Origin: Phycisphaerae bacterium
GTDB taxonomy: Bacteria > Chloroflexota > Anaerolineae > 4572-78 > J111
Length of the DNA: 64,000 nt
Reading direction: 5' to 3'
Assembly: GCA_028285035.1 (NCBI GenBank)
Contig: JANQQF010000181.1
Span: forward strand, 1-64,000
In this document: one piece after another, positions 7,181 through 52,563 of the stretch
How the letters are laid out: every line of letters starts with the position of its first letter
Numbering within the stretch: position 1 is the stretch's first letter
The notes under the pieces: generated by a model
What the model was told of the DNA's origin: nothing
Seen by the model: only the letters and a program-made list of their open reading frames with translations
Databases searched by the model: none
Translations under genes and position numbers: made by a program

Positions 7181-10129
7181 TTACTGAGGAGCATCTCCCC
7201 AGGTGCCGTAATATCCTTCGCGGTCCATAATTTCACGCAGTTTCACAGCAGCTTCGTCCATGGCTTCCTGAACGCCTTTTTCACCAGACATGGCTTCCGA
7301 CAGGGCGACGCCGAGCACATTGACATTCATTTCATCCCATTGGGCCACGAGTGGCCGCCAATCGGGTTCAGCACACTCAAGCTGTTCCAAAATAACTTCG
7401 TATTCAGGAAACTGGGCCTGCAATTCAGGGTCATTCAGGGTCGATTTACGAACGGGTTCACCACCAATTTCAGCCAGCTTGCGGTCTTGCTCTTGGCTCG
7501 TGAGCCATTGCATAAAGAGGAAGGCAGCTTCAGGATTCTTGGCATTCGTTGGAATACCCAAAGCAAAGCCACCTGTTTCAGAACCACATTGTTTGGCAGT
7601 TGGGTGTAGAGCGTACCCCACCAAACCATCTACTCTAGATCGTTCAGGGTTGCGGGTCAAGGCCGCGATTTTGTGATGATCTAGGAACATTCCTACCTCT
7701 CCCTGCAAGAAGGTATTATGCGCATCACCAATGCCAAAGCTACCAACACCAGGCGGTGAGTTCTCAAAGATCGTTTTCAAGGTCTCAGCCGCAGCCACGC
7801 CTTCTGGGTTGTTTACAATCGGATTCCATAGATCGTCAAAGACACCCCCGCCATGTGGAGTCAAATGGAAGAGCCAGGCTGCTGTGATCTGGTGGCCAGT
7901 TGCCCCACGAGAGGTCATCCCATACACACCATCGACATTATCGGTGATGTACTGAGCCGTTTCTAACAACTCATCATAGGTTTCAGGCACTTTTAGGTTG
8001 TGCTCTTCAAAAATGTCTTTACGATAGGTTAGAATACTTGTTTCTGCGGCAAAGGGGATGCCGTACAGGGCCTGGGTCGGACCAGGGAGATAGGCTCGTC
8101 TGCCGCCGACTGCACCACCAGTCAGCAAGTAAGCCTCTACAAAGTCTTCTGGATTATAGTTGGGGTCAACCAGATCGGCCCTAGTAAAGAAGGGGGCCAG
8201 GGGTTGAATGAGACCTTTGTTTACATACTCAGTCTTCCACATCACCACCCAAGCGACCATATCGTAGTCACCACCATCTGGCTTACTCATCTCCAACACC
8301 TGCTTGTCGTGCATGCTCAGATACTGGATTGAGTCCACTTCAACATTGATGCCAGTCAATTCTTCAAACTCTGGAATTAACTCTTTAGCTTTTTCAAAGG
8401 GGGCCGTTGCGGGCCAACTCACCACAATCGTTGTACCTTCATAAGGTTTGTAACGATCTGCCGCAGTGGTGTAATACCCTTCACGGTCCATAATCTCACG
8501 AAGCTTGACGGCGGCTTCGTCAAGCGCCTCCTGAACACCTTTTTCACCAGACATAGCTTCTGATAGGGCGACGCCTAGCACATTGACGTTCATTTCATCC
8601 CATTGAGCAACCAGCGGTCGCCAATCGGGTTCGGCACACTCAAGCTGTTCTAGAATAACCTCGTATTCGGGGAATTGGGCTTGCAATTCGGGGTCGCTTA
8701 GCGTTGATTTACGGACAGGTTCGCCCCCAATTTCGGCCAGCTTGCGGTCTTGTTCTTTGCTCGTGAGCCATTGCATAAAGAGGAAGGCGGCTTCAGGATT
8801 CTTGGCGTTCGTTGGAATACCCAGAGCAAAACCACCCGTTTCAGAGCCACATTGTTTGGCGGTGGGGTGGAGAGCGTACCCCACTTTACCATCCACTCTA
8901 GAGCGTTCAGGATTGCGAGTCAAAGCAGCGATTTTGTGGTGATCCAGGAACATTCCCACCTCGCCCTGCAAGAATGTATTATGCGCATCACCTATACCAA
9001 AACTACCCACACCGGGCGGTGAGTTTTCAAAGATTGTTTTCAGGGTCTCAGCCGCAGCCACGCCCTCGGCGTTGTTCACAATCGGATTCCACTCATCATC
9101 AAAGATACCGCCACCATAGGGGGTCAAATGGAAGAGCCAGGCCGCTGTAATCTGGTGACCAGTTGCCCCGCGGGAGGTCATCCCATACACACCATCGACA
9201 TTATCGGTGATGTACTGAGCTGTCTCTAACAACTCATCATAGGTTTCAGGTACTTTCAGGTTGTGCTCTTCAAAGATATCTTTGCGATACGTCAGAATAC
9301 TTGTTTCTGCAGCAAAGGGGAGCCCATAGAGGGCCTGGGTTGGGCCGGGGAGGTAGGCTCGTTTACCACCTACCGCACCACCAGTCAGCAAGTAAGCCTC
9401 TATGAGGTCTTCTGGATCGTAGTTGGGATCGGCCAGTTTGGGGTCGGTGTAGAATGGGGCCAGGGGTTGAATGAGGCCTTTGTTTACATACTCGGTCTTC
9501 CACATCACCACCCAAGCGACCATATCGTAGTCACCGCCATCTGGCTTGCTCATCTCCAACACCTGCTTATCGTGCATGTTTAGGTACTGGATTGAATCCA
9601 CCTCGACATTGATCCCAGACAATGCTTCAAATTCTGGAATTAATTCTTTGGCTTTTTCAAAGGGAGCTGTTGCGGGCCAACTCACCACAAGCGTTGTGCC
9701 AGCATAGGGAGCATAGGGGTTGGTGTCACTGCTTGTCGGAGCCGTCTCTTCAGTGGCAGTAGCGGCTTCTTCTTTGGCCGCCTCGGCTTCAGCCATTGCA
9801 GCTTCAGCTTCGGCTTGGGCTTCTTCAGCCTGGGCTTGGGCTTCTTCAGCCGCAGCTTGCGCTTCAGCTAACTCTTCGGCATTGGCGTTTTCTGCTTCAG
9901 TAACCTTGGCTTCAGCAGTCGCCAAAGCAGCTTCAGCCTCAGTTTGGGCAGCTTCGGCCTCAGCCTGAGCCTCCGCAGCAGCGGCTTGGGCTGCTTCTAG
10001 CTCAGCTTGGGTAGCTGAGTCAACCTCTTGGACAGTCGGTTCAGCTGAAGAACAGGCAACTATTAATGTTGCTATTAGGAACAAAATTATGAAAAAACCG
10101 CATCGTTTCAAGAAATTCTTCTTCGTCAC
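7181..10129 (-). CDS. Lipoprotein with two tandem family 1 solute-binding domains
   Basis: 982 residues from a GTG at 10129 preceded by AAGGAGG; an upstream ATG in frame lacks an RBS. Residues 1-25 form a lipoprotein signal peptide with lipobox LIVAC and Cys26. Residues 27 to about 135 are an Ala/Glu-rich, probably coiled-coil tether. Two CUT1-type solute-binding domains follow, at about 141-553 and 562-974, each complete and about 94% identical (I count some 23 differences by eye). The usual family length is 400-450 residues with one domain. It delivers substrate to the 3611-5421 permeases. Both copies keep the protein sequence while their codons differ, so both appear to be under selection. 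Confidence 0.92.
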   Translation of the reverse strand: MTKKNFLKRCGFFIILFLIATLIVACSSAEPTVQEVDSATQAELEAAQAAAAEAQAEAEAAQTEAEAALATAEAKVTEAENANAEELAEAQAAAEEAQAQAEEAQAEAEAAMAEAEAAKEEAATATEETAPTSSDTNPYAPYAGTTLVVSWPATAPFEKAKELIPEFEALSGINVEVDSIQYLNMHDKQVLEMSKPDGGDYDMVAWVVMWKTEYVNKGLIQPLAPFYTDPKLADPNYDPEDLIEAYLLTGGAVGGKRAYLPGPTQALYGLPFAAETSILTYRKDIFEEHNLKVPETYDELLETAQYITDNVDGVYGMTSRGATGHQITAAWLFHLTPYGGGIFDDEWNPIVNNAEGVAAAETLKTIFENSPPGVGSFGIGDAHNTFLQGEVGMFLDHHKIAALTRNPERSRVDGKVGYALHPTAKQCGSETGGFALGIPTNAKNPEAAFLFMQWLTSKEQDRKLAEIGGEPVRKSTLSDPELQAQFPEYEVILEQLECAEPDWRPLVAQWDEMNVNVLGVALSEAMSGEKGVQEALDEAAVKLREIMDREGYYTTAADRYKPYEGTTIVVSWPATAPFEKAKELIPEFEELTGINVEVDSIQYLSMHDKQVLEMSKPDGGDYDMVAWVVMWKTEYVNKGLIQPLAPFFTRADLVDPNYNPEDFVEAYLLTGGAVGGRRAYLPGPTQALYGIPFAAETSILTYRKDIFEEHNLKVPETYDELLETAQYITDNVDGVYGMTSRGATGHQITAAWLFHLTPHGGGVFDDLWNPIVNNPEGVAAAETLKTIFENSPPGVGSFGIGDAHNTFLQGEVGMFLDHHKIAALTRNPERSRVDGLVGYALHPTAKQCGSETGGFALGIPTNAKNPEAAFLFMQWLTSQEQDRKLAEIGGEPVRKSTLNDPELQAQFPEYEVILEQLECAEPDWRPLVAQWDEMNVNVLGVALSEAMSGEKGVQEAMDEAAVKLREIMDREGYYGTWGDAPQ
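7208..8446 (-). repeat. Intragenic tandem duplication, copy 2 (C-terminal SBP domain)
   Basis: This block aligns without gaps to 8471-9709 at an offset of exactly 1263 bases (421 codons). Differences are spread along it and are mostly synonymous: a 52-base sample near the 3' end shows 8 changes. It encodes residues 562-974 of the lipoprotein. Confidence 0.93.
8471..9709 (-). repeat. Intragenic tandem duplication, copy 1 (N-terminal SBP domain)
   Basis: Partner of 7208-8446, encoding residues 141-553. The join between copies encodes a short TTAADRYK-type linker, so the second domain follows the first almost directly. Confidence 0.93.
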
Positions 10130-10247
10130 TGTATCCTCCTTAGAACATCGTTGTTTAAATTTCACATTTTGTTTTAAGTGATTTCAATTCCTGTATTTAC
10201 ATCACTATTTTTTGTTATCCACCTCCCATTCTTTGAAAGTTAAATTA

Positions 10248-28899: not shown

Positions 28900-31800
28900 A
28901 TGACCCTTATCATTCATCTCTTAGGCTCCATTCAAATCAGTCGTGATAATCAACCAATCTCCCTGCGTGGTTACAAAACCACCGCTTTACTCGCTTACCT
29001 ATTACTGACCAGCAAAGCTCACACACGCCGCCATCTCATCGATCTTCTTTTTGATGGGCCGGCTGACCCCAAGGCCAGTCTACGCTGGATCCTATCCCAA
29101 CTTCGGCAGGCAATCGGTCCCGAATTTGTTTTGGCTGACCGACAACAGATTGCCTTTAATTTTGACAGTGATTATTGGTTAGATGTCGCTGCCTTTGAGG
29201 CGGGGCAGATCAATTTATATCAGGGTGATTTTTTAGAGGGACTCAATGTTCGTGATGCATTTGGCTTTGAAGAATGGGCTTCCTTTGAGCGGGAACGACT
29301 ACGGAAACAATATCAAACGGCTCTAATTGAACAGCTTGAGAAAAATGAAAGTCTGGGGAATGACATCAGGGTTGTTGAAACAGCCCAGCAGCTACTCCGT
29401 CTGGATAATTTTCAAGAAGTATGGCATCGAGCGTTGATGAGGACCTATGCCCGACAGGGGCAGCGTGAGGCGGCCTTGGCTCAATTTAATTTCTGCCGCC
29501 GAATTCTCAAAGAGGAATTAGGGACGGAACCCGCCAAAGAAACTGTCGCCTTAGCCGAGCAAATCCAAGCAGGCACTCCAGAGGCTCCTATATTGGTTTC
29601 TAGCCAGTCTCAAGATACCCTACTCACCCGGCCAGCTTTCCTTGAGCCTTCAAATGAGACATCGGTAGACACAGATATTAATTTTGTCGCGCGTGAAGAA
29701 GAACTCATCCAGCTAAACAACTTTTTTGACTTGGCTCTGGCCGGTCAGAGTCGTGTCGTATTTGTGACAGGTGATCCTGGTAGTGGTAAGACGGCTTTGG
29801 TACAGGAATTTAGCCAGCGCATCCAAGCTACCCAGCCTGAGTTGATTGTCGCCGGGGGAGTTTGTAATGCTTTTACCGGTGTAGGCGACCCCTACTTACC
29901 CTTTCGTGAAGCCTTAAGTCTACTGGCCGGCGAGGTCGAAACCAGGGGGATATCCGGTACGATCAGTCGGGACCAAGCACAACGGCTATGGGCCTTGATG
30001 CCTCAGACAATTCAAACATTGATGGTGAACGGGCCGGACTTGCTTGATATCTTTATTTCGAGTTCAAGCCTGATCCAACGCGGAACAATAGCCGCCCCCG
30101 GTGGCGCGAACTGGCTGTCCCAACTCATCGAATTGGTCACCCATAAGAAAGCCACATCTCCTCCAGTTCAGCTACAACAGGCCAACCTGTTCGAACAATA
30201 CACCAAAGTGATACAGGCCCTCGCTCAGCAGCAGCCCATATTGTTAATACTAGATGATCTACAGTGGGCTGACGCTGGTTCTATCAATTTGTTGTTCCAT
30301 TTAGGGCAACGGCTCAAAGGTCAACGTATTCTGATTATCGGTATTTATCGACCAGCCGACGTGGCCCTGGGACGTCCTACATTAGGCGGGGGAGGACAGG
30401 AACGACACCCTCTGGAAGCCGTAGTAAATGAGTTCCAACGCAACTTTGGTCAAATTCATATTGATCTGAACAAAATAGAGGGTTACTCATTCATAAAGGC
30501 ATTGCTGGACACTGAACCTCATCAGTTAGATCTTACCTTTCAAGAGGCCCTTTATCAGCACGCTCAAGGTCATGCTTTGTTCACCATCGAAATGTTGCGC
30601 GGTATGCAGGAGCGGGGGGATTTAGTTCAAGATGATCAGGGTCGCTGGATTGAAGGTCCAACGCTAAATTGGGAGATTCTTCCTGCTCGAATTGAAGGCA
30701 TTATAGGCGAACGGATTGGACGATTACCGCCGAAATCACAACAGATATTACAGATTGCTAGCATCGAAGGTGAGGTTTTTACGGCTGAAGTGATTGCCCA
30801 AACACAAGGCATCAGTGAACCGGAGGTGGTTCGACAGTTGAGTGGTAGTTTAGACCGGCAACACCGTTTGGTTCGAAGCCAGGGTAGCCAGCTTTTAACG
30901 GTTGAGGGGCAACGAGTGTCTCATTATCACTTCCGGCATATTTTATTCCAACGATATTTATATAGCACGATGGATGATACAGAGCGAAGTTATCTACATC
31001 AGGCCGTCGGCACGGTTCTTGAGCAACTGTATGAGGGGCAGCCTGAAGAGATAGCCGTCCAGCTTGCCTGGCACTTTCAGCAGGCGGGATTAGTCGAGAA
31101 GGCCATTGGCTATCTACAGCAAGCAGGCGACAGAGCAGTACGACTGTCTGCCTATGAAGAAGCCATAAACCACTTTACCCAAGCGATTACTTTACTCGAA
31201 ACTCTGGCTACGCATTCACAACATGCTCAGCAGGAACTCAATTTGCAAATTGCGTTGGGGCAAGCTCTCTATGTCGTCAAGGGAACAGGGTCACCAGAAG
31301 TAGAACGGGCTTGGAGTCGGGCACGAGAATTATGTGAACAGCTTGGAGAAACAAAACAACTATTTCTAGTGCTTTATGGGTTAGTCACTTACAATGTAAT
31401 GCGGGGTGATATACGACAGACAGCATCAACGCTGGGAGAGCAATGCCTACAGTTGGCTCAAAGCCAGCAAGATTCGACTCTACTTATTGGGGCTTACATC
31501 CTTCTGGGTACCCTCTCACATTATCTTGGTGAATTTGCTCCAGCGCAGATACACTTTGAACGCGGCCTAGCACTTTATGATCCTCAGCAAAGTGCTACCC
31601 TTGTCTCTTTTTACGGACATGACCCAGGTGTTTATATCCGACGCTATCTGGCTTGGACTAGCTGGGAGTTGGGTTATCCTGAACAGGCATTAGAACACGT
31701 TCAGGCAGCAGTCGATCTGGCCAAGGAGCTTTCTCACTCATTTAGCTTGGTCGGAGCATTAGGTCACGCCTGTGTTATCCTTGGGCACTGCCGAGAAGCA

Positions 31801-32385
31801 CAGGCATGTCTCGATCAGGCCGAGGAAACAATTACCACGTCAATCGAGCAGGGGGCTATCCACTGGCAGTTAATTGGCACAATGTGGCGAGGCTGGGCCT
31901 TGGCTGAACAGGGACAAGTAGAAGGAATCGAGCAGATCCGTCAAGGCTTAAAAGAGTATCAGGCTGTCGGAGCACGGGCCACATCTGCAATTTATTTAAC
32001 TATGCTGGCCAACGCATATCTAAAATTTGGGCAAGTAACCGAGGGGCTGATTACGGTTAAGGAAGCCTTAACTGAAATGGACACCATTGGCGAAGGCATC
32101 ATTAAAGCAGAAGCGTACAGGCTTAAGGGAGAGCTATTAAAACGAGATGGAGCAGGCGAAGGGGAAGTGGAACAGCAATTCCTTAAAGCCATCGACATTG
32201 CTCGCCAGCAAAGCGCCAAATCGTGGGAGTTACGGGCAACGGTAAGTTTGTGCCTTTTGTGGCAAGCTCAGGGAAAGCGCGCAGAGGCGGGCCAGATGCT
32301 ATCAAACATTTACAATTGGTTTACTGAAGGTTTTGATAGGGTTGATTTAAAGGAAGCTAAACAGCTTCTTGAAGACTTGTCATAA
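28900..32385 (+). CDS. BTAD/SARP-like AAA ATPase regulator with TPR repeats
   Basis: 1161 residues. Residues 1-95 form the DNA-binding winged-helix part (LLGSIQISRDNQPI, LLTSKAHTRRHLIDLLFDG) and 95-225 the bacterial transcriptional activation domain. From about 262 an AAA/STAND ATPase follows with Walker A GDPGSGKTAL near residue 291 and Walker B ILLILDDLQWAD near 447. TPR-like helices run from about 700 to the end (ALAEQGQVEGIEQIRQGLKEY and others). This is the AfsR/MalT-style layout of large signal-dependent activators. Target and signal are unknown. Confidence 0.9.
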   Translation: MTLIIHLLGSIQISRDNQPISLRGYKTTALLAYLLLTSKAHTRRHLIDLLFDGPADPKASLRWILSQLRQAIGPEFVLADRQQIAFNFDSDYWLDVAAFEAGQINLYQGDFLEGLNVRDAFGFEEWASFERERLRKQYQTALIEQLEKNESLGNDIRVVETAQQLLRLDNFQEVWHRALMRTYARQGQREAALAQFNFCRRILKEELGTEPAKETVALAEQIQAGTPEAPILVSSQSQDTLLTRPAFLEPSNETSVDTDINFVAREEELIQLNNFFDLALAGQSRVVFVTGDPGSGKTALVQEFSQRIQATQPELIVAGGVCNAFTGVGDPYLPFREALSLLAGEVETRGISGTISRDQAQRLWALMPQTIQTLMVNGPDLLDIFISSSSLIQRGTIAAPGGANWLSQLIELVTHKKATSPPVQLQQANLFEQYTKVIQALAQQQPILLILDDLQWADAGSINLLFHLGQRLKGQRILIIGIYRPADVALGRPTLGGGGQERHPLEAVVNEFQRNFGQIHIDLNKIEGYSFIKALLDTEPHQLDLTFQEALYQHAQGHALFTIEMLRGMQERGDLVQDDQGRWIEGPTLNWEILPARIEGIIGERIGRLPPKSQQILQIASIEGEVFTAEVIAQTQGISEPEVVRQLSGSLDRQHRLVRSQGSQLLTVEGQRVSHYHFRHILFQRYLYSTMDDTERSYLHQAVGTVLEQLYEGQPEEIAVQLAWHFQQAGLVEKAIGYLQQAGDRAVRLSAYEEAINHFTQAITLLETLATHSQHAQQELNLQIALGQALYVVKGTGSPEVERAWSRARELCEQLGETKQLFLVLYGLVTYNVMRGDIRQTASTLGEQCLQLAQSQQDSTLLIGAYILLGTLSHYLGEFAPAQIHFERGLALYDPQQSATLVSFYGHDPGVYIRRYLAWTSWELGYPEQALEHVQAAVDLAKELSHSFSLVGALGHACVILGHCREAQACLDQAEETITTSIEQGAIHWQLIGTMWRGWALAEQGQVEGIEQIRQGLKEYQAVGARATSAIYLTMLANAYLKFGQVTEGLITVKEALTEMDTIGEGIIKAEAYRLKGELLKRDGAGEGEVEQQFLKAIDIARQQSAKSWELRATVSLCLLWQAQGKRAEAGQMLSNIYNWFTEGFDRVDLKEAKQLLEDLS

Positions 32386-39195: not shown

Positions 39196-41337
39196 TTACT
39201 GCATTAGGTATTTTGAGGTAAGGTCACTCTTGATTTGTTCAGTAACGGCAGCAATGTCATCAGCATAACTATCGAGATTGTCCACGGTAACAAAAGCTGT
39301 GCCAGAGTCGATGTGATAAACACCGTCAACGGGCTGGTATCCTTCAACCATCAGTTTTAACGCTAACAGTGACAGATAGCCGTGGCCAAAGGGGTTCTGA
39401 GCAATCGTACCATCCATCACCCCGTCCTCAATCGCTTTCATCACGGTTGGATCAGTGTCGATACCGACCGCGTGAATTTCTCGGTCACCACCCGTGTCAT
39501 AGTACTCACCCAACACCTGAGCAATCCCCACACTGGTTGTAAATCCAGTCGCAATCAATCCATCCACCTCATTGATATTGGCCGATAGTACATTACCGAT
39601 CTTATCAACAGCCTCTTCCACACTAGTCATCCCAGAGATTTCTTGAATGATTTCAACATCTGGATATTTGGCGACAACTTCTTCAACCCCTTCTTTCCGC
39701 AAGACCGTGTTCGAGTCTTCCAGCACTTCCAAGACGTTGATGATTTTACCCTGGCCACCCATCGACTCGATCAAAGCTTCGGTAGCTTGCATTGCTGCGG
39801 CCTTTACGTCAGTGGCGACGACGAAGGACGCTGTGGTCGGTTGCAGGGTTGAGGCCCCAAAGTTAATCACTGTCACCCCATTCTGGGTTAACTCCTCATA
39901 CAAACCGTTGGCGCCACTAGCATCAGTCGGATAGACCGAAAAGTATTTGAACCCTTGAGCGGCCAAGGCCTCGACCCGCTCGTTCTGGCTCGCCTGCTCC
40001 CAATCTGGCCCAATCTGCTTCTCAACTGGAATGCCAAAGTCCGCTTCAAAGGCTTCGACGCCCTTGACAACCTCCTCAAAGTAGGGGTGAGGTGCCGAGG
40101 CATACCACACCAAACTGTAATTCTCAGGGTTAACCTCAGGGGCTACAGCCTCAGCTTCAGCCGTATCTCCCGTCGTCAGGTATTTTGAGGTGAGGTCATT
40201 CTTGATTTGTTCAGTAACGGCAGCAATATCATCAGCATAACTATCGATATTGTCTACGGTAACAAAAGCCGTCCCAGAGTCGATATGATAGACACCATCG
40301 ACAGGTTGATAACCTTCGGCGATCAGCTTCAAAGCCAATAACGATAGGTAGCCGTGACCAAAAGGATTCTGAGCAATCGTACCATCCATCACCCCGTCCT
40401 CAATCGCCTTCATCACGGTAGGATCGGTATCGATACCAACCGCGTGAATCTCTCGGTCACCACCGGTGTCATAGTATTCACCCAACACTTGAGCAATCCC
40501 GACACTGGTTGTAAATCCGGTGGCAATTAAGCCGTCGACCTCATTGATATTGGCCGATAACACATTGCCAACTTTGTCGACGGCCTCCTCGACGCTGGTC
40601 ATCCCAGAGATTTCCTGGATAATCTCAACATCTGGATATTTGGCGACAACTTCTTCAACCCCTTCTTTTCGTAAGACCGTGTTTGAATCTTCCAAAACTT
40701 CCAAGACATTGATGATCTTACCCTCACCCCCCATCGATTCAATGAGGGCTTCAGTGGCTTGCATCGCTGCGGCCTTCACGTCAGTGGCGACGACGAAGGA
40801 CGCTGTGGTTGGTTGTAAGGTTGAGGCGCCAAAGTTAATAACCGTCACACCATTTGCGGTTAGTTCTTCGTACAACCCATTGGCGCCGCTGGCATCTGTC
40901 GGATAGACTGAGAAATATTTGAACCCTTGAGCGGCTAGGGCCTCAACCCGCTCGTTCTGGCTAGCTTGTTCCCAATCTGGACCGATCTGTTTCTCGACTG
41001 AAATGCCAAAGTCCGCTTCAAAAGCTTCTACACCCTTGACGACCTCTTCAAAATAGGGGTGGGGGGCCGAGGCATACCACACCAATCCGTAATCATCTGT
41101 GGCTTTATCCGCCTCCGCCATTTCGGCTTCAGTCGATGCTGACACTTCTTCGGTCACCTCTGTCTCGGCAGGTTCAGCCTCAGCTTCTTCAACAACCTCT
41201 TCAACAGGCTCTGCGGCTTGCTCCTCGACAGGTTCGGGGGGCGGGGGTTCAGTACTAGAGCAGGCTGCGAAAACCATACTCAACAAGAACAGCAGGATCA
41301 GAACAGACAAATTTTTTAGCGTATTTCTTTTCATCAT
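39196..41337 (-). CDS. Lipoprotein with two tandem ribose-type sugar-binding domains
   Basis: 713 residues from the ATG at 41337 (AGGAG 7 bases upstream). Signal peptide with lipobox VFAAC, Cys26, then an acidic Glu/Pro/Ala tether to about residue 80. Two complete Peripla_BP_4-type domains follow at about 83-386 and 407-710, differing at about ten positions. Between them is a 20-residue linker (TTGDTAEAEAVAPEV) resembling the N-terminal tether. Normal members have one domain of about 300 residues. It feeds the 41405 permease and 37623 ATPase, probably with L-fucose or a related sugar. Confidence 0.92.
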   Translation of the reverse strand: MMKRNTLKNLSVLILLFLLSMVFAACSSTEPPPPEPVEEQAAEPVEEVVEEAEAEPAETEVTEEVSASTEAEMAEADKATDDYGLVWYASAPHPYFEEVVKGVEAFEADFGISVEKQIGPDWEQASQNERVEALAAQGFKYFSVYPTDASGANGLYEELTANGVTVINFGASTLQPTTASFVVATDVKAAAMQATEALIESMGGEGKIINVLEVLEDSNTVLRKEGVEEVVAKYPDVEIIQEISGMTSVEEAVDKVGNVLSANINEVDGLIATGFTTSVGIAQVLGEYYDTGGDREIHAVGIDTDPTVMKAIEDGVMDGTIAQNPFGHGYLSLLALKLIAEGYQPVDGVYHIDSGTAFVTVDNIDSYADDIAAVTEQIKNDLTSKYLTTGDTAEAEAVAPEVNPENYSLVWYASAPHPYFEEVVKGVEAFEADFGIPVEKQIGPDWEQASQNERVEALAAQGFKYFSVYPTDASGANGLYEELTQNGVTVINFGASTLQPTTASFVVATDVKAAAMQATEALIESMGGQGKIINVLEVLEDSNTVLRKEGVEEVVAKYPDVEIIQEISGMTSVEEAVDKIGNVLSANINEVDGLIATGFTTSVGIAQVLGEYYDTGGDREIHAVGIDTDPTVMKAIEDGVMDGTIAQNPFGHGYLSLLALKLMVEGYQPVDGVYHIDSGTAFVTVDNLDSYADDIAAVTEQIKSDLTSKYLMQ
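39208..40119 (-). repeat. Intragenic tandem duplication, copy 2 (C-terminal sugar-binding domain)
   Basis: Aligns gap-free to 40180-41091 at an offset of exactly 972 bases (324 codons). The first 95 bases show about eight differences, mostly synonymous. Confidence 0.93.
40180..41091 (-). repeat. Intragenic tandem duplication, copy 1 (N-terminal sugar-binding domain)
   Basis: Partner of 39208-40119. The 60-base spacer 40120-40179 encodes the acidic interdomain linker, so the duplicated unit seems to have included part of the tether. Confidence 0.93.
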
Positions 41338-41404
41338 CGAATTTCTCCTCATCAAAAAATTTATATGAAATTTGAATAAGATTTTATGACTTTGCCAACA
41401 CAAA

Positions 41405-42460
41405 TTATTCTGCTTCAGACGGTTGCTGCCTCCTTCCCAAGCGTTTGGTTGATGATTGCACAGCGGCTCGAATGCGATCAAGCGACACGGCCAACAAAAT
41501 AATCAACCCAAGAAATGTTTGCTCAAAATACACATTCACATCAAACATGATCAGGCCATTTTTAATCAGCACGAGTAAGATGGCACTGGCTAATAGGGCA
41601 AGCATCGATGCTTCGCCACCGGTAAGCGCTGTCCCGCCGATGATGGCGACGGCAAAGGAAATAATCAGCCAATCACTCCCGGTGCCTGGTTGGGCCGACC
41701 CCATTCGGGATACCCAAAGTAGGCCAGCCATCGCCCCAAACAGTCCTGACAAGGTATGGCAGAGCAAAATAATTCGATCTGTTCGAATTCCCGAGAGTTG
41801 AGCCGCTTCTAAATTACCGCCCGTTGCCAGAATTTGGCGACCAACTACGGTGAACTTAAAGACATAAGCCATAATGGCCAGGATTAGTATCGCTAGCAGA
41901 AACAAATAAGGCACGCCAAACAATGAGCCTCGCCCTAAAAAGGTGATGGATTTTGGAATTTCGGTGTAAGGAAACCCTCGAGAGATGCCGGTCACTAAGC
42001 CGGTAAAGATAAATAGACTGGCCAGGGTAATGATAAAGGAATTGATCTGTGACTTAATCACGATAAAGCCATTAAAGGCACCTGCGAGCATACCAACTAA
42101 GATAGCAATTGGAGCGGCTTGCCAAGGAGACAGCCCCATTGTTTCCATTGTATAGCCAGCCGTCACCACAACCAGCCCCCCGATGCCACCCAGTGATAGG
42201 TTCATACCACCCACGACCAACACAATCATTTGGCCCAAGGCAATGAAGACATAAAGCCCAGCCGTACGGGAGACATTGAAAAGGTTGTATTGACTAAAAA
42301 AGCTGTCGGTGCCTATGGAGAACACCAAAAATAATAGGGCCGTTGCAATTACAACACTTATATCATTGCGTCTTAACAATTTGGAAATGCGCTGCCCAAA
42401 TCCCGAAACTCGGGGAGAGTCAGACACAAGCAATTGTTGATTAGCATTTGCTTCATTCAT
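41405..42460 (-). CDS. Ribose-type ABC transporter permease
   Basis: 351 residues with GGAGG before the ATG and eight to ten hydrophobic helices. The family motif SGIRTDRIILLCHTLSGLFGAMAGLLWVSR and AIIGGTALTGGEASM identify the RbsC/BPD_transp_2 class. First gene of the fucose-type operon, preceded by the GntR operator at 42513. Confidence 0.93.
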   Translation of the reverse strand: MNEANANQQLLVSDSPRVSGFGQRISKLLRRNDISVVIATALLFLVFSIGTDSFFSQYNLFNVSRTAGLYVFIALGQMIVLVVGGMNLSLGGIGGLVVVTAGYTMETMGLSPWQAAPIAILVGMLAGAFNGFIVIKSQINSFIITLASLFIFTGLVTGISRGFPYTEIPKSITFLGRGSLFGVPYLFLLAILILAIMAYVFKFTVVGRQILATGGNLEAAQLSGIRTDRIILLCHTLSGLFGAMAGLLWVSRMGSAQPGTGSDWLIISFAVAIIGGTALTGGEASMLALLASAILLVLIKNGLIMFDVNVYFEQTFLGLIILLAVSLDRIRAAVQSSTKRLGRRQQPSEAE

Positions 42461-44510: not shown

Positions 44511-45566
44511 TTATTGAGCCAATTGTATAGCAAAATTCCGCAAGTTTGTCGCTTCAACCAACCGCTGTATTTTACCATCAGCCGGATTCGCCACATAAAG
44601 CCCATCTGAGGCACTGAAGTAAATCAAGCCATCACTCCCCAGACTACCAAAAATAATGAGCAACTCTTCGGAGGTCAGGCGCTCAGGCTCCCCCCCGGTG
44701 GCTGGCATCCGCCACCAGTCGGTCGGGATCGGTTGATCGACGTGCGCTTGGGCCACCTGTACCCCAAGCCACGGTTCCCACCAGTGCTGGCTGATGGCTG
44801 GGTTGGCCAGTGAGGCGGCAAAGTAAATGTGCTGAGAGTCTATGGTGAAGAAGGGGCTATCGAGATCAAAGTAAGCTCCAATTTTGAGAAGTTGGACCAG
44901 ATTATCCCCAGCCAAATCTGTCACGACCAAGCCTCGCTCCAGAGTCTCGGGATCGACCGTGATATAGGTTAATTTCTGGCCATCCGGCGACACTCGTGGC
45001 CAAATGCCATCATCGGCAATTTTGAGCGTCGCTTCGGTAGCCAACTCATAACGCCACAAGGCCACGTCAAATCGGCTGCGGGCCGTGGGATCGGGAATGA
45101 AGGTGATGTAGAACAGATATCGCCCATCCGGGGTCCAGACCGGATTAAAATAGAAAAGATCGGCTTGATCAGGCACGTAAACAGGCTGCAACTCAAGTGG
45201 AGGGGTGTCTAAGGCCAAGGTGTAAAGCCCGGCTCGGTCAAAGGGATAGGCTGTTTCATCAACGGGCGGGGGGGTGTATGACAAAGCCAAGCTGTTTGTT
45301 GCCGCCAGAAAATCAATCTGGTTGATCCAACCATCCGGCTCCACCTCAAAGAGTGGGTCTGTTGCCCGGGTGTCAACATCAAATTGGCTCAAGCGAAAAT
45401 CGGGGTAATTGTTGTACTCGATCAAGATTAGCTGATCAACTGAAGCGGCAATGGGTGTGGCTAGTCCATCCCGCTCCTGCAAGGCTTCAATCCGACCACA
45501 ACTGATCAGCAGGAAACAGACGACACAAAACCACCCCCATCTCACCCCATCAATCTGTCTAAGCAC
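44511..45566 (-). CDS. Lipoprotein with TolB/PD40-like beta-propeller
   Basis: 351 residues from a GTG at 45566 that overlaps the previous TAG (ATAGTG). Lipobox LLISC gives an anchored Cys. PD40-type blades repeat: NPVWTPDGRYLFYIT, WPRVSPDGQKLTYIT, DSPFFTIDSQHIYFAA and GSLGSDGLIYFSA. It is likely a surface protein with a structural or binding role; no catalytic site is visible. Confidence 0.8.
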   Translation of the reverse strand: MLRQIDGVRWGWFCVVCFLLISCGRIEALQERDGLATPIAASVDQLILIEYNNYPDFRLSQFDVDTRATDPLFEVEPDGWINQIDFLAATNSLALSYTPPPVDETAYPFDRAGLYTLALDTPPLELQPVYVPDQADLFYFNPVWTPDGRYLFYITFIPDPTARSRFDVALWRYELATEATLKIADDGIWPRVSPDGQKLTYITVDPETLERGLVVTDLAGDNLVQLLKIGAYFDLDSPFFTIDSQHIYFAASLANPAISQHWWEPWLGVQVAQAHVDQPIPTDWWRMPATGGEPERLTSEELLIIFGSLGSDGLIYFSASDGLYVANPADGKIQRLVEATNLRNFAIQLAQ

Positions 45567-46204
45567 TATAACCCTTCGTCATCGGCGAACTGCTTTCTCA
45601 ATTGAGCAAAGGCCATTGGCACTTCACCCAGCCGGAGATACTCCACAATGATGGCGGCGCATGTTTCAGGCAAGTTGCTCGTTGTATCAATTTCAAGATC
45701 ATAGATTTTGTGAGCATGAACGTTTCGCAATTGGCGGCGTGACAAACCCAAATAGCGATCCCCTCGTTTGATCTCACGTCGTTCCAGCTCTTCTAATGAG
45801 CAGTGCACCCCTATAAAAATTACTTCAACACCCTCGCACAACTGAACCATTTCTTTCAGCCAGCGTTGCTGCTCAATCACATGATCAACGATTAAGAGGT
45901 GTCCTTCTTTCGCTTTGGCCGCAATCATGCGATGAAAGCCTGCGATCATTTGAAATCCCAGCGCCATCCCTGGTTGGGGCGTTCTTATAATATCCCGAGG
46001 CAATTTTATCCCTGTACTCATACTTTGCCCGAGGGCTTGGCCTGTATTTTGATAGGCTGATATATAATTTGTAAAAAGATCGCTGTACTGATCAATCGAC
46101 TCAATGACGTAGGGGTCGGTCAACATCTGCTTTAAGGTTTCGGCTAAGGTTGACTTACCCGCACTTGAGGGACCATTCAGCAAGATAACTCTTCCTTTTA
46201 ACAT
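45566..46204 (-). CDS. Chloramphenicol-phosphotransferase-like P-loop kinase
   Basis: 212 residues with GGAGG before the ATG. P-loop LLNGPSSAGKSTLAETL, then LIVDHVIEQQRWL and the family block IGVHCSLEELERREIKRGDR, with KIYDLEIDTT near the end. This is the CPT-like fold, whose Streptomyces member modifies chloramphenicol. Distant members have unknown substrates, so resistance should not be assumed. Confidence 0.85.
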   Translation of the reverse strand: MLKGRVILLNGPSSAGKSTLAETLKQMLTDPYVIESIDQYSDLFTNYISAYQNTGQALGQSMSTGIKLPRDIIRTPQPGMALGFQMIAGFHRMIAAKAKEGHLLIVDHVIEQQRWLKEMVQLCEGVEVIFIGVHCSLEELERREIKRGDRYLGLSRRQLRNVHAHKIYDLEIDTTSNLPETCAAIIVEYLRLGEVPMAFAQLRKQFADDEGL

Positions 46205-47468: not shown

Positions 47469-49706
47469 ATGAGTGAAATGCTAAATCGGTATGAAATTTT
47501 GGATGAGCTTGGTCAAGGTGGTTTCGCCATCGTTCATCGAGCGCGTGATACAGTTTTGGACCGGCAAGTTGCCCTCAAAGAACTAAAGCCCTTCTTGTTA
47601 CAAGATAATAGTTGGGTCAAACGGTTTCGTCAAGAGGCCCAAACCATTGCTCGCCTGGACCACCCCCACATTGTGACAATTTATGATGTCATTGAAGACG
47701 AGGGTCGTCTGTTTATTGTCATGCGCCTGGTCGATGGTCCCAGCTTAGAAAGCCATATCACATCACAAGGACGTCTACCCTGGGTCCAAGTGTTCCAGAT
47801 GATGAGCGCCATTACCGCCGGATTGGACTACGCCCACGCCAAAAATATTTTGCATCGGGATATGAAGCCTGCCAATATCCTGCTTGATCCGGAACGAGGC
47901 CCGATGCTGACAGATTTTGGGCTGGCAAAAATTGCCGGGCAGCACAGCATGAGCCTGACCGCGAGCGGCGGAGTGGTTGGCACGCCTCACTACATTGCCC
48001 CCGAAGTTTGGGATGGGCAAGGCACGACCCACCAATCGGATGTTTATGCCCTCGGTTGCATTTTGTATGAGATGTTAACCAGTGAGAAAGTGTTCAAAGG
48101 GGACACCCCACCGGCGATCATGATGTCCCACTTCAAGCCGCCGGTCCTGCCAGCGACCTGGCCGTCTGATGTACCCCCAGGTGTCTCAGATGTACTCAAA
48201 AACGCTTTGGCGCGGCGGCCACGCGATCGGTATGGCAGTGCAGCTGAGATGTCGGCAGATTTAACGGCACTGGCTAACATTAGGGCAACTCCCGAGGCTG
48301 GAACCCAACGAACCCTGACCCCGCCAACGCCCATCATCCCCATTCAGGTCGAACGGCCCGTCGATGAGTTCGCGCAGGTGGAGCCTGAGTTTATCGATCA
48401 AATGACAACCTTGGTGCCCGATGAGCCAGCCCCAAATTTAACCACCACTGCTCAGTCTCAAGCGCCCCGCGAGTCCACCCAGTCTTCTACAGGGATATTG
48501 AACACGTCGGCTAAATTAGAAACCCTGGAGTCTTCGATTGCCATGCTCCCTCCCAGATGGCATCGCTTTTTCAAATTCTTCAGTTTATACATCATCCTCA
48601 TATTTTTTCTGGCGATTATAAATTTGCTGACGGCCCGATACCCTTGGTTTCTCTGGCCAGGCGCAATTTTGGGAATTCCGTTAGCCTTCTATTTTGTGGC
48701 CATCTTATTTGGCTCAAACCGGGAAGAGACCCCCGTAATTGATGTGGAAAAAGCCAGCTCTCCTTCGCAGGAAGTCAGGATGAAGCAGGCCTATCGGCGG
48801 TCGGGCTGTATGTGGATGTCAACCGCCCTGATCGGCAGTGTGGCGGTGCTCTTGATTGGGATCGGTGGATTTTGTGCGGTTGCCCAAAATGTCATTGAAG
48901 GCTTCTTCCCTGAGTTGGTGCTGACCCAAACGATTGCAGAAGAAATTCAGATTCCTACTCCTAACACCGATGAACCGCCTGAGTTGGATCTCAGGTTTTT
49001 TGGTGGCGAGTTGGTTCTATCCTCCGGGGCTGAGGATTTGCTCTTATCAGGCTCGGTCGAGTATAACACCAACGAGATGAGACCTGAGGTAGTTACAGAG
49101 GGTAATCGAGTGATCGTACGCCCGATTGAAAATGTTGGCCTCTCAGCTTTTGTTACAGATGGACTTGAAAATAAATGGGATGTACAGTTGGGATCAGTGC
49201 CCATGCACTTAGCCTTGGATGTAGCCGCCACTACGGCTGATCTTGACTTTGGCGGCGTATCTTTGCTCGACCTTAGGGTCAAACAAGGGGCAGCAGGCTT
49301 TGATTTGTACTTTACCGAGCCAAACAACGTACGAATGGATGAACTCAATTTCAAAGGCGGTGCTTCCAGAGCCAGTCTCTCCAGTTTGGCTAATAGTCGG
49401 GCCGACGAGATCGTCATCGAAGTAGGGGCTGGGGAGTACATTCTTGACTTTGGCGGCGAGTTGCAGAATGATATTGATGTCATAATCCGAGGTGGCTTCG
49501 GTAATGTCACCATCATTATGCCAGAGGAGACACGTGCCGAGGTCATTGTATTACAAGGCAACTCACTTGATGTTGAAATTGAGGGGGCTTGGCTTACTGA
49601 CAATGAGAACCGTTATGCCCTGCCGGCCGACTCATCCGAAAGCGAGTTTGAGATCATTATTGACGTTGAATTTAGTCCGGGCAGCTTAAATTTACACACA
49701 TCGTGA
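47469..49706 (+). CDS. Transmembrane Ser/Thr protein kinase with toast-rack-like ectodomain
   Basis: 745 residues. Residues 1-265 form a Hanks-type kinase: Gly loop LGQGGFAIVH, Lys37 in VALKELK, HRDMKPANIL with catalytic Asp131, DFG at 149-151, and PHYIAPEV. A Pro/Thr/Ser-rich juxtamembrane segment follows to about 365. Hydrophobic spans lie at about 366-413 (two) and 450-472. The C-terminal 240 residues are beta-rich and repetitive (LRFFGGELVLSSGAEDLLLSG, EYILDFGGELQNDIDV, EIEGAWLTDNENRYAL), like toast-rack/LiaF or DUF4097 adhesin-like domains, and should face outward. All catalytic residues seem intact. Likely cotranscribed with 49717. Confidence 0.88.
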   Translation: MSEMLNRYEILDELGQGGFAIVHRARDTVLDRQVALKELKPFLLQDNSWVKRFRQEAQTIARLDHPHIVTIYDVIEDEGRLFIVMRLVDGPSLESHITSQGRLPWVQVFQMMSAITAGLDYAHAKNILHRDMKPANILLDPERGPMLTDFGLAKIAGQHSMSLTASGGVVGTPHYIAPEVWDGQGTTHQSDVYALGCILYEMLTSEKVFKGDTPPAIMMSHFKPPVLPATWPSDVPPGVSDVLKNALARRPRDRYGSAAEMSADLTALANIRATPEAGTQRTLTPPTPIIPIQVERPVDEFAQVEPEFIDQMTTLVPDEPAPNLTTTAQSQAPRESTQSSTGILNTSAKLETLESSIAMLPPRWHRFFKFFSLYIILIFFLAIINLLTARYPWFLWPGAILGIPLAFYFVAILFGSNREETPVIDVEKASSPSQEVRMKQAYRRSGCMWMSTALIGSVAVLLIGIGGFCAVAQNVIEGFFPELVLTQTIAEEIQIPTPNTDEPPELDLRFFGGELVLSSGAEDLLLSGSVEYNTNEMRPEVVTEGNRVIVRPIENVGLSAFVTDGLENKWDVQLGSVPMHLALDVAATTADLDFGGVSLLDLRVKQGAAGFDLYFTEPNNVRMDELNFKGGASRASLSSLANSRADEIVIEVGAGEYILDFGGELQNDIDVIIRGGFGNVTIIMPEETRAEVIVLQGNSLDVEIEGAWLTDNENRYALPADSSESEFEIIIDVEFSPGSLNLHTS

Positions 49707-49716
49707 ACAACTTTTT

Positions 49717-52563
49717 ATGAAAACCTTTAATCAAGCCGTTCTAGCGGCCATAGATACGCACATTGATAAACTCTGCTTTCAAACCGATCAAGGCGGGGTT
49801 TACGATATGGTATCTTATCGGGAGTTCCAAACCCTAGCTTTTCGTCTGGCTCGCTTTTTTACAAATCAAGGACTAACCCCTGGTGATCGGGTGGCCCTGG
49901 TGGCCCCGAATTCACACGTATGGATGGCAAGTTACGTGGCCTGTCTGATGTGTGAAGGGGTGGCTGTCCCTCTTGATCTTTCCTTAGCCCCCTTGACTCT
50001 ACATCGCATTCTCAAGGAGAGTGGGGCGAGCCTGGCCTTGCTGGACGATCAAACCCATCTTGACCACCTCCTTTCGGTCTGGAGTCCAGCAAATCCACGC
50101 GATCTATCAAAGTTAAATACTGTACTGATTATCTCCGAAGAGTTTGTTACCCTCCCCGATGTGACCTCACTAGATGCGGTGTTAGCCGAGCCTCTACCCA
50201 CACCAGAGGAAGAGGCTACGTTTCGCATCAATGCTGAGTCGATTGCCCCCCACGCCAGAGCGGCCATCCATTACGTTATCGATAATGATGGGCAATCCAA
50301 GGGTGCGGTCTTCACGCAGGCCCAACTCGAAGCGGGGGTAAGGCATCTGGCCGAATGGCTGATTTTTGAGGACGATGAATTGGCCTTTACCATCGGCCCC
50401 TGGAGTAGTTTGAGCAGCCTGATTGTGGGGCATCACTATTTTCGCTCAGGCATCCCCAATGCCCTATGCAACAACTTTGAGGGAATCACCCACGATATGC
50501 GGCAAACCAGCCCAACCATTATGTTTGCTGTGCCGTATGCCTTGCAGCTATTTTATGATGCGTACATGGAGCGTGTGGCAAAACAACCCACCGCTACCCA
50601 AGATGTTTTTCGCTGGGCCTTGGCCAAGGGGCGAAAATATGCCACGGCTGGGGATACTGCCTCGCCTGAACTGACAGAGGCCTATCAGCGGGCCTATCTC
50701 ACCTTCTTTAGCGAGTTGCGCGGGGAGGTTGGTGGTCGTTTGCGTCGAATTTATGCGGTGGGGGCGATTTCACCAGATGTATCCGAACTATTTGAGGCCA
50801 TGGGCGTACCCGTTTATGGCTTGTACAGTTTTGCCGAAGCGGGCGGATTTCCCACCTTTGCCAACTCAGACACCTATCGGTCTGGCTCAGTCGGTCGGGT
50901 GGCTCCCGGCTATGAGATCAAAATTGCGGAAGATAGCGAAATTCTCATCAACGGGGAGGCTGTGGTCAAAGAGTATTGGCAGCGCCTTGAGGAGACACAA
51001 CAGCTACACGAGCACGGCGGCTGGCTGCACACTGAGGATTTGGGCTACTTCGACGACGAGGGATATCTGTTCATCACTGAGCGCAAACATCACATGATCG
51101 TGATGTCCACTGGCCGCAAAATCGCCGCCGTACCTATTGAGCAAGCCTTGAGTGCCAGCCCCTTCATCACTCAAGCAGCGGTTGTTGGCGAAGGTAAATC
51201 CTACCTGTCGGCGATGATCGTCCCCGATTTGGCGGCGCTGGCCGAGCATTTTTCCGATGTTGCTACCTCCGACGATACCCTCATCACCACCACCCACCCC
51301 CAAGTAAAGGCCTTACTTGAACAGGTCATTGGTGAGGTCAACCGAGGTCTTGACCGCTGGGAGCAGGTGCAAGAGTTTCGTCTTCTGGAGCAACCGCTCA
51401 GCCAAGATGCCGGGGAATTGACACCCTCAATGAAGATTAGCCGTCACACCGTGGCCCAACGTTATGCCTCACAAATTGAGGCGATGTATCCGGTAACTCC
51501 CAAGTTGAAGGCGCAAGAGGTGTCACAAGTTGAAGTGGAGCCGGAGCGCCTTCGGGAGTTGTTGGAGAAGGAAAAAATCCTTGATGCTTGGATGGCCGAT
51601 GCTGGGATTGAGTTCCTTTTTGAACTGGCTCGGGCCAAAGAGATTGATGCCCCGGCGATGGTCAATATATGTGACACCGTGGCCATGATCGCCCAAATGG
51701 AAAATGAGGAAGTTCCTTTGTCGACGGCCCTAATTGTTGGCGATCCGGTTCGGGTGCGGCGGGTTCTGCCGCCCAGCCAGATTCAGTTGCGTAATCAGAA
51801 TCACATTCGACGAATGCGCCGAATGCTGGTTACGATGGCGAAAGTGGTTGATGGTTTGGTTTTGGGGTATTTAGTCGATAAATATGGTTATGTGCGGGGT
51901 ATTCGCAAATTAGAGATGCCCCTGTCTGACTCAGATAATTACTTACTTGGCCCCCAGTTTCGCCGCCACGCTACCATCTCCCAACAGGCAGATGCGGTGG
52001 TCTTCTTCGTCCCAACCGGCGGGAGACAGGTGCGGGTCTTTGCCGAAGGACAGCTCGTAGGGCGTTATGCCAACGGGGATTGGTCTCCCGATAGTATGAC
52101 GCACGTTCAGGAGGTCATTCGCACTATCGCTACTGAAAAAGAGTACGATGCGCCCCTCATTCGTCGCATCTTGCGTTGTGCCTTTGAAATGTCAGAAGGC
52201 AACATGGGGGCGATTTTTATCATCGGCCACGCCCAAAGCATTCTCGAACGGTCCGACACCTCTGAGATGAGTCACTTCGCCACCATCACCAGTGTGTCGT
52301 TAGATCACCTCACCGATCAGGAGTTGATCAACTTCGCTCGCCAAGACGGGGCCACCATCATTGATGTCGCCGGATTCTTTGCCGGATGTATGATCCTCCT
52401 CCGTCCCCACCCCGAGACCTCCGCTGAAATCGGCCCCGGCAAAGGCGCTCGCCACAGCAGTGCTGCCAAAATGAGCGCTGAGGCTGACTGTCTCGCCATC
52501 ACCGTCTCCCACGATGGACCGATTACGATTTATGACTCTGGGCAACGGCGGCTGTCATTGTAG
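49717..52563 (+). CDS. AMP-forming ligase fused to two diadenylate-cyclase-like units
   Basis: 948 residues, starting 10 bases after the kinase stop. Residues 1-595 match long-chain acyl-CoA synthetases overall (LTPGDRVALVAPNSHVWMASYVA; GYLFITERKHHMIVMSTGRK; LTPSMKISRHTVAQRYASQI with Lys573). However, the P-loop near 186-197 is YVIDNDGQSKGA instead of the YTSGTTG-x-PKG form, and the A7 motif is T-E-D, not T-G-D, at 439-441. Residues 670-790 look like a degenerate DAC unit (DGL at 712, RRH at 749-751). Residues 825-945 are a second DAC unit with DGA at 877 and ARHSS where cyclases have T-RHR. No signal peptide or membrane span. Ligase or cyclase activity is unproven. Confidence 0.82.
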   Translation: MKTFNQAVLAAIDTHIDKLCFQTDQGGVYDMVSYREFQTLAFRLARFFTNQGLTPGDRVALVAPNSHVWMASYVACLMCEGVAVPLDLSLAPLTLHRILKESGASLALLDDQTHLDHLLSVWSPANPRDLSKLNTVLIISEEFVTLPDVTSLDAVLAEPLPTPEEEATFRINAESIAPHARAAIHYVIDNDGQSKGAVFTQAQLEAGVRHLAEWLIFEDDELAFTIGPWSSLSSLIVGHHYFRSGIPNALCNNFEGITHDMRQTSPTIMFAVPYALQLFYDAYMERVAKQPTATQDVFRWALAKGRKYATAGDTASPELTEAYQRAYLTFFSELRGEVGGRLRRIYAVGAISPDVSELFEAMGVPVYGLYSFAEAGGFPTFANSDTYRSGSVGRVAPGYEIKIAEDSEILINGEAVVKEYWQRLEETQQLHEHGGWLHTEDLGYFDDEGYLFITERKHHMIVMSTGRKIAAVPIEQALSASPFITQAAVVGEGKSYLSAMIVPDLAALAEHFSDVATSDDTLITTTHPQVKALLEQVIGEVNRGLDRWEQVQEFRLLEQPLSQDAGELTPSMKISRHTVAQRYASQIEAMYPVTPKLKAQEVSQVEVEPERLRELLEKEKILDAWMADAGIEFLFELARAKEIDAPAMVNICDTVAMIAQMENEEVPLSTALIVGDPVRVRRVLPPSQIQLRNQNHIRRMRRMLVTMAKVVDGLVLGYLVDKYGYVRGIRKLEMPLSDSDNYLLGPQFRRHATISQQADAVVFFVPTGGRQVRVFAEGQLVGRYANGDWSPDSMTHVQEVIRTIATEKEYDAPLIRRILRCAFEMSEGNMGAIFIIGHAQSILERSDTSEMSHFATITSVSLDHLTDQELINFARQDGATIIDVAGFFAGCMILLRPHPETSAEIGPGKGARHSSAAKMSAEADCLAITVSHDGPITIYDSGQRRLSL

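Follow-up and report, generated by a model that had tools for sequence, protein, structure and literature searches.

A decaying acyl-CoA synthetase fused to tandem diadenylate-cyclase-like units in Chloroflexota, a candidate input-gated cyclic di-AMP synthase

Diadenylate cyclases (DACs) form cyclic di-AMP (c-di-AMP) through a reaction that requires two ATP-loaded units placed face to face, as stated in PMC8573169 and PMC10167629. In the described families the DAC domain has differing partners: transmembrane helices at the N-terminus in CdaA, a DNA-binding part at the C-terminus in DisA (PMC8573169, PMC7288161) and, in DacZ/CdaZ, a pyruvate-kinase-C-like domain that precedes a single DAC (PMC6741144). 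Here we describe a gene on a 64,000-nucleotide stretch of contig JANQQF010000181.1 (the whole stretch is hereafter the window) whose product has a ligase-derived half and, behind it, two DAC-like units, unit 1 and unit 2. The account that best explains the observations as a whole, and which we judge a little likelier right than wrong, is that this gene encodes an extra, input-gated DAC.

The fusion protein and its parts are listed in Table 1. Pfam matched AMP-binding (PF00501), AMP-binding_C_3 (PF23562) and, at residues 823-943, DAC (PF02457, 4.6e-15), each above its cut-off. A protein search at E<=1e-3 returned 469 homologues, and the best 120 of these, the window protein included, all have the same three domains. 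A preliminary description, made from the sequence alone, had proposed a ligase-like half and then two DAC-like units; the open frame, the Pfam matches and the homologues bear out this order, with unit 1 as its weaker part. The profile search of each half that it recommended found AMP-binding and the C lobe in the ligase half and PF02457 in unit 2. Residue counts below refer to an alignment of 117 rows including the window copy, three of the best 120 homologues having been dropped as shorter than 930 residues. Mean conservation over these rows is 0.64 and 0.70 in the two ligase lobes and 0.79-0.83 in the remainder.

Table 1. Features of the fusion gene and its upstream neighbour (positions in the window; residues of the 948-residue protein).
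Feature	Position	Strand	Evidence
Fusion protein, 948 aa	49717..52563	+	Open frame without internal stop; 469 homologues, 120 listed with the three Pfam domains
AMP-binding N lobe, residues 17-421, atypical P-loop	49765..50979	+	PF00501 4.7e-34; motif counts
C lobe, residues 460-591, A10 lysine K573	51094..51489	+	PF23562 2.7e-14; K573 in 46/117 rows
Conserved helices preceding unit 1, residues 609-660	51541..51696	+	Mean conservation 0.83 over 600-668; helices in model; also in standalone relatives
Unit 1, probable pseudo-DAC, residues 669-792	51721..52092	+	Element order in model, profile test, residue counts
Unit 2, DAC domain, residues 796-948	52102..52560	+	
DGA motif of unit 2, residues 877-879	52345..52353	+	Invariant, 117/117 rows
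RHS, counterpart of RHR, residues 912-914	52450..52458	+	Invariant, 117/117 rows
PknB-type Ser/Thr kinase, 745 aa, with 2TM and Toast_rack_N matches, ending 10 bp upstream of the fusion	47469..49706	+	Pkinase 9.3e-54

Where organism names are given among the best 120 homologues, they are Chloroflexota or Anaerolineae; shorter relatives include three partial proteins named Thermodesulfobacteriota or Acidobacteriota (P0142, P0155, P0162). When genome contigs were searched with this one protein, a single relative emerged, from a Chloroflexi metagenome-assembled genome; its best segment is 70% identical. Within the class of that genome, the tandem DAC part was matched at E<=1e-15 in 15 of 396 genomes. 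Thirteen of these matched nearly the full tandem part, in 17 copies, and the other two (G191 and G027), which hold fragments only, lie outside the 17. Sixteen copies stand in open frames of 921-1003 residues, ruling out the assembly or frameshift join between the halves that the preliminary description had allowed for; the seventeenth (G001) is interrupted, at 529 residues. A profile of the tandem unit matched 18 of the 396 genomes, the additional ones holding single, more distant DACs. In one order 13 of 25 genomes were matched; of 400 genomes drawn from the phylum, 2 were, G001 among them. Homologue domains, open frames and genome counts thus show a genuine, conserved fusion of narrow range.

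The tandem unit is exchangeable: it occurs alone, behind the ligase-like half or, in one protein, behind a receiver domain. Ten proteins consist of the tandem unit alone, all of 342-350 residues apart from P0157. The receiver-linked protein, P0204 (480 residues, on a contig of 10453 bases), has a tandem unit that shares 26% identity with the first row of the profile, and may be a response-regulator DAC; its receiver match is weak (26.9 bits, cut-off 30.2), though listed in the database. The tree that we built has 47 rows: 34 fusions taken from the 117, 12 proteins that lack the ligase half, and P0204, which forms a very long branch. The 34 fusions and two proteins without the ligase half, P0134 and P0157, form one group with support of 100/100; P0134 lies firmly within it, and the placement of P0157, on a long branch, is less well supported. 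This is most simply read as one fusion that was followed by losses.

In the predicted model, unit 2 adopts a DAC fold: the structural comparison with known DACs that the preliminary description had called for gave DAC matches over the C-terminal half. The best 60 PDB matches listed for a profile covering the whole protein (A2) and the best 50 Foldseek matches listed for the full-length model are all ligase-type, and a PDB sequence search with residues 597-948 found no match up to E 1. The active-site Asp, Arg, His and Ser of unit 2 are invariant in 117/117 rows, which supports the output step of our account. Unit 2 might instead have lost c-di-AMP synthesis, in which case the tandem unit would act as a receptor for a nucleotide or for c-di-AMP and signal to the ligase half or to kinase/phosphatase partners. 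This would suit a motif that reads RHS for RHR in every row, an Ala at the place of CdaA Thr102, the presence of another DAC in the fusion genomes drawn, and a conservation so high that it would equally fit a binding site. Yet all four active-site residues are kept, and the third Arg is absent from the ten site residues listed in PMC7288161. Four other DACs of the class, detected by the tandem profile, also lack that Arg, two having RHM, one RHT and one RHA. We therefore consider a receptor role unlikely. The CdaA-type set used below (sequence from 30 of 31 loci) was chosen by a script requiring RHR and is thus uninformative on the third Arg.

The ligase half retains the fold of an acyl-CoA synthetase and shows decay in its motifs. 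As the preliminary description stated, the P-loop (YVIDNDGQSKGA) and the A7 motif (T-E-D) depart from consensus; at position 440 the window copy alone has Glu, where 115/117 rows have Gly and 1/117 has Asp. Two ordinary ligases of the fusion genome G252, examined as controls, show SGTTGLPK, YG(Q/S)TE and RK(V/L)RR; six control frames were examined, one of which (L080) lacks the P-loop in its partial sequence. The best NCBIfam match of the fusion, FadD11, reaches 175 bits against a model cut-off of 950. It could be argued that this half remains active, as an acyl-CoA synthetase or in forming acyl-adenylates, and is sensed or regulated by the DAC part: E374 is kept in 106/117 rows, D441 in 116/117 and R456 in 102/117, the window copy has both K195 and K573, and the source names of homologues read long-chain acyl-CoA synthetase. 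However, an intact P-loop and A10 lysine are not maintained across the family, the P-loop lysine (K195) being present in 64/117 rows and the A10 lysine in 46/117, and the aligned P-loop segments (186-198) take 106 distinct forms among 117 rows. The window copy is itself more divergent, with further departures at residues 188-191, A373 and E440. We find an active synthetase quite improbable; judged by its motifs, this half is a decaying acyl-CoA synthetase. Its better-kept residues hint that it may still bind a nucleotide or adenylate, and it is plausible that this half would bind a ligand and so gate c-di-AMP synthesis.

Unit 1 is probably a pseudo-DAC, in keeping with the suggestion in the preliminary description that one of the two units is a pseudo-domain. 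Its helix and strand order in the predicted model is that of unit 2, it has TALI where DACs have GALI, and its profile scored 23.4 against 30 CdaA-type sequences of the class, exceeding each of 200 column shuffles (maximum 20.6). By a count from the strands, Pro (114/117) occupies the place of the phosphate-binding Ser and Gly (110/117) that of the Glu two residues past it, and the DG is shifted by about two residues with respect to the strand. The RRH motif assigned to unit 1 depends on register, profile alignment and strand count differing by one or two residues. Among standalone rows, 8 of 9 lack RH in unit 1 and have FRRY, YRRY, FSRY or FCRY; only P0157 has FRH. Given the changed Ser and Glu places, the displaced DG and the lack of RH in most standalone rows, unit 1 is unlikely to hold a second ATP. 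Catalysis by pairing of the two units within one chain, a built-in pseudo-dimer with one productive site, was the mechanism first suggested, and might give a linear or asymmetric product; it draws on the tandem units present in every listed homologue spanning the region, on a unit 1 VDG kept in 117/117 rows and on a gapped profile register that places R749-R750 opposite RH, but the same losses and the need for two ATP-loaded units make it improbable. Pairing of the units without catalysis is compatible with these data. Of the two copies, unit 2 alone looks catalytic from its residues, and since two ATP-loaded units are needed and unit 1 is an unlikely catalytic partner, the active pair is expected to form between the unit 2 copies of two chains.

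A DAC is present in 285 of 298 class genomes sampled, and in all ten fusion genomes of that draw DAC matches outnumber fusion copies; a c-di-AMP riboswitch occurs in 4 of the 13 fusion genomes. Because the fusion genomes hold further DAC matches, the fusion is an extra, and not the sole, putative synthase. Two Chloroflexota genomes, G205 and G252, encode DacZ/CdaZ-like single-DAC proteins of 306 and 316 residues (at loci L099 and L104, respectively) with RHT or RHA and a different N-terminal domain; G252 holds three DAC matches.

The neighbourhood of the fusion is associated with Ser/Thr phosphorylation genes. The 13 fusion genomes (77.5 Mb) contain 488 kinase and 240 SpoIIE matches, and, among the matches listed, at least 10 of the 17 copies have a kinase or SpoIIE match no further than 5 kb away (1.7 expected, P 8e-7) and at least 6 have one no further than 1 kb away (0.45 expected, P 3e-6). 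These P values serve as a guide only, since the two families were selected after the neighbours had been inspected and the copies are partly dependent (G270 and G297 resemble one shared locus). At locus L065 the order is histidine kinase, SpoIIE protein and fusion, with gaps of 2 and 15 bp and the receiver part assigned by eye; at L068 it is histidine kinase, receiver-SpoIIE and fusion. Two further loci (L059, 4886-7942, assigned by domains; L061, 12143-15522, assigned by sequence family) have a SpoIIE, two STAS and a pentapeptide gene ahead of the fusion, a cluster resembling partner-switching systems.

We propose that two ATP would be converted to c-di-AMP when the unit 2 domains of two chains come to face each other, and that unit 1, a DAC repeat past catalysis, would control or scaffold this pairing. 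The N-terminal half, formerly an acyl-CoA synthetase, would now serve mainly as a ligand-binding or conformational input, and the protein may operate beside circuits of PknB-type kinases and SpoIIE-type phosphatases. The output step is favoured by kept active-site residues; we infer c-di-AMP synthesis itself, pairing between chains, the gating, its ligand and a phosphorylation input. A more specific version, which we hold to be possible but doubtful, is that unit 1 acts as a decoy, capping the catalytic face of unit 2 at rest and blocking catalytic pairing. The cap would be lifted when the pseudo-ligase binds a ligand or its lobes rotate and, in concert, the kinase or SpoIIE phosphatase encoded nearby adds or removes phosphate. 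If so, c-di-AMP output would report acyl or adenylate status, with one dead enzyme acting on another.

Several observations weigh against an input-gated DAC built in this way. In unit 2, besides the Ser and Ala substitutions given above, D933 stands for the metal-binding Glu when counted from the Ser, and the profile alignment has a one-residue gap there. In the ligase half, E, D, R and the A10 lysine occur together in 31/117 rows, including the window copy. The identity of unit 1 as a DAC repeat is not proved by the profile and Pfam tests: its profile scored 18.4 against unit 2, under the shuffle maximum of 25.7, and profiles of unrelated ligases reached 19.0 with unit 1 and 20.3 with CdaA. 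Pfam gave no PF02457 match to unit 1 in the window protein and weakly matched 1 of 4 unit-1 fragments (E 0.18), where the unrelated Tcf25 did better (E 0.087). Among the matches that the structural aligner listed, none to a DAC covers unit 1; this is a bare absence, unit 1 not having been folded alone. Of the two DAC-like units first described, unit 2 is backed by Pfam and by its modelled fold, and unit 1 has element order, TALI and the CdaA profile score in its favour. Finally, for 7 of the 17 copies the matches listed include neither a kinase nor a SpoIIE domain within 5 kb, and neighbours vary among the copies.

An anti-phage role was considered and rejected, proteins P0001 and P0204 having no PADLOC match at E 0.01. 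The upstream kinase matched 36 PADLOC models over its kinase domain, most of the 25 listed being PD-T4-6, and we take these matches as generic. A plasmid search gave no match up to E 0.01, the window contains no tRNA, and no Rfam family reaches its gathering score there. A scan of the surroundings of the genes gave 7 promoter-like sites (5.3 in shuffles) and 12 terminator-like sites (6.0), which were not used as evidence. Elsewhere in the window, 45566-46204 (-) encodes a chloramphenicol-phosphotransferase-like P-loop kinase (PF07931, 1.8e-44; NCBIfam 85 bits, true-enzyme cut-off 250). Two solute-binding proteins are each matched in two stretches and possibly have tandem binding domains: 7181-10165 (-), 994 residues, SBP_bac_1, and 39196-41481 (-), 761 residues, Peripla_BP_4. 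A regulator of SARP/LuxR-like type, 1161 residues with BTAD, AAA and TPR, lies at 28900-32385 (+).

If our account is correct, some genomes of the class add a second, fusion DAC to the one that nearly all sampled genomes have, and this DAC belongs to a class of synthases that contain their own input. One could then test directly how inputs control the making of c-di-AMP and how metabolic enzymes are turned into sensors. The preliminary description knew of no system with the ligase-DAC-DAC order, and none was found in the literature searched, which comprised titles and the starts of abstracts, with most subscription papers and preprints outside its coverage. Close relatives include standalone tandem-DAC proteins such as P0176 and P0188, annotated as DisA nucleotide-binding domain proteins, whose tandem unit is 47-52% identical to that of the fusion and which lack the ligase half. 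With long-chain acyl-CoA synthetases of the ANL superfamily the fusion shares fold and domain order, whereas it falls far under the FadD11 cut-off and its adenylation motifs have decayed in many rows. Unit 2 resembles CdaA/DacA and DisA in fold and in most active-site residues; however, PF00501/PF23562 stand where CdaA has transmembrane helices, and the DAC ends with the protein where DisA continues into its DNA-binding part. DacZ/CdaZ (PF02457) likewise shares the DAC fold and the DGA and G-x-RH motifs of unit 2, but in the fusion a DAC-like repeat and a ligase-derived half precede the DAC. The ligase half and the tandem DAC, neither of which occurs in CdaA/DacA or DisA, are both found in the fusion.
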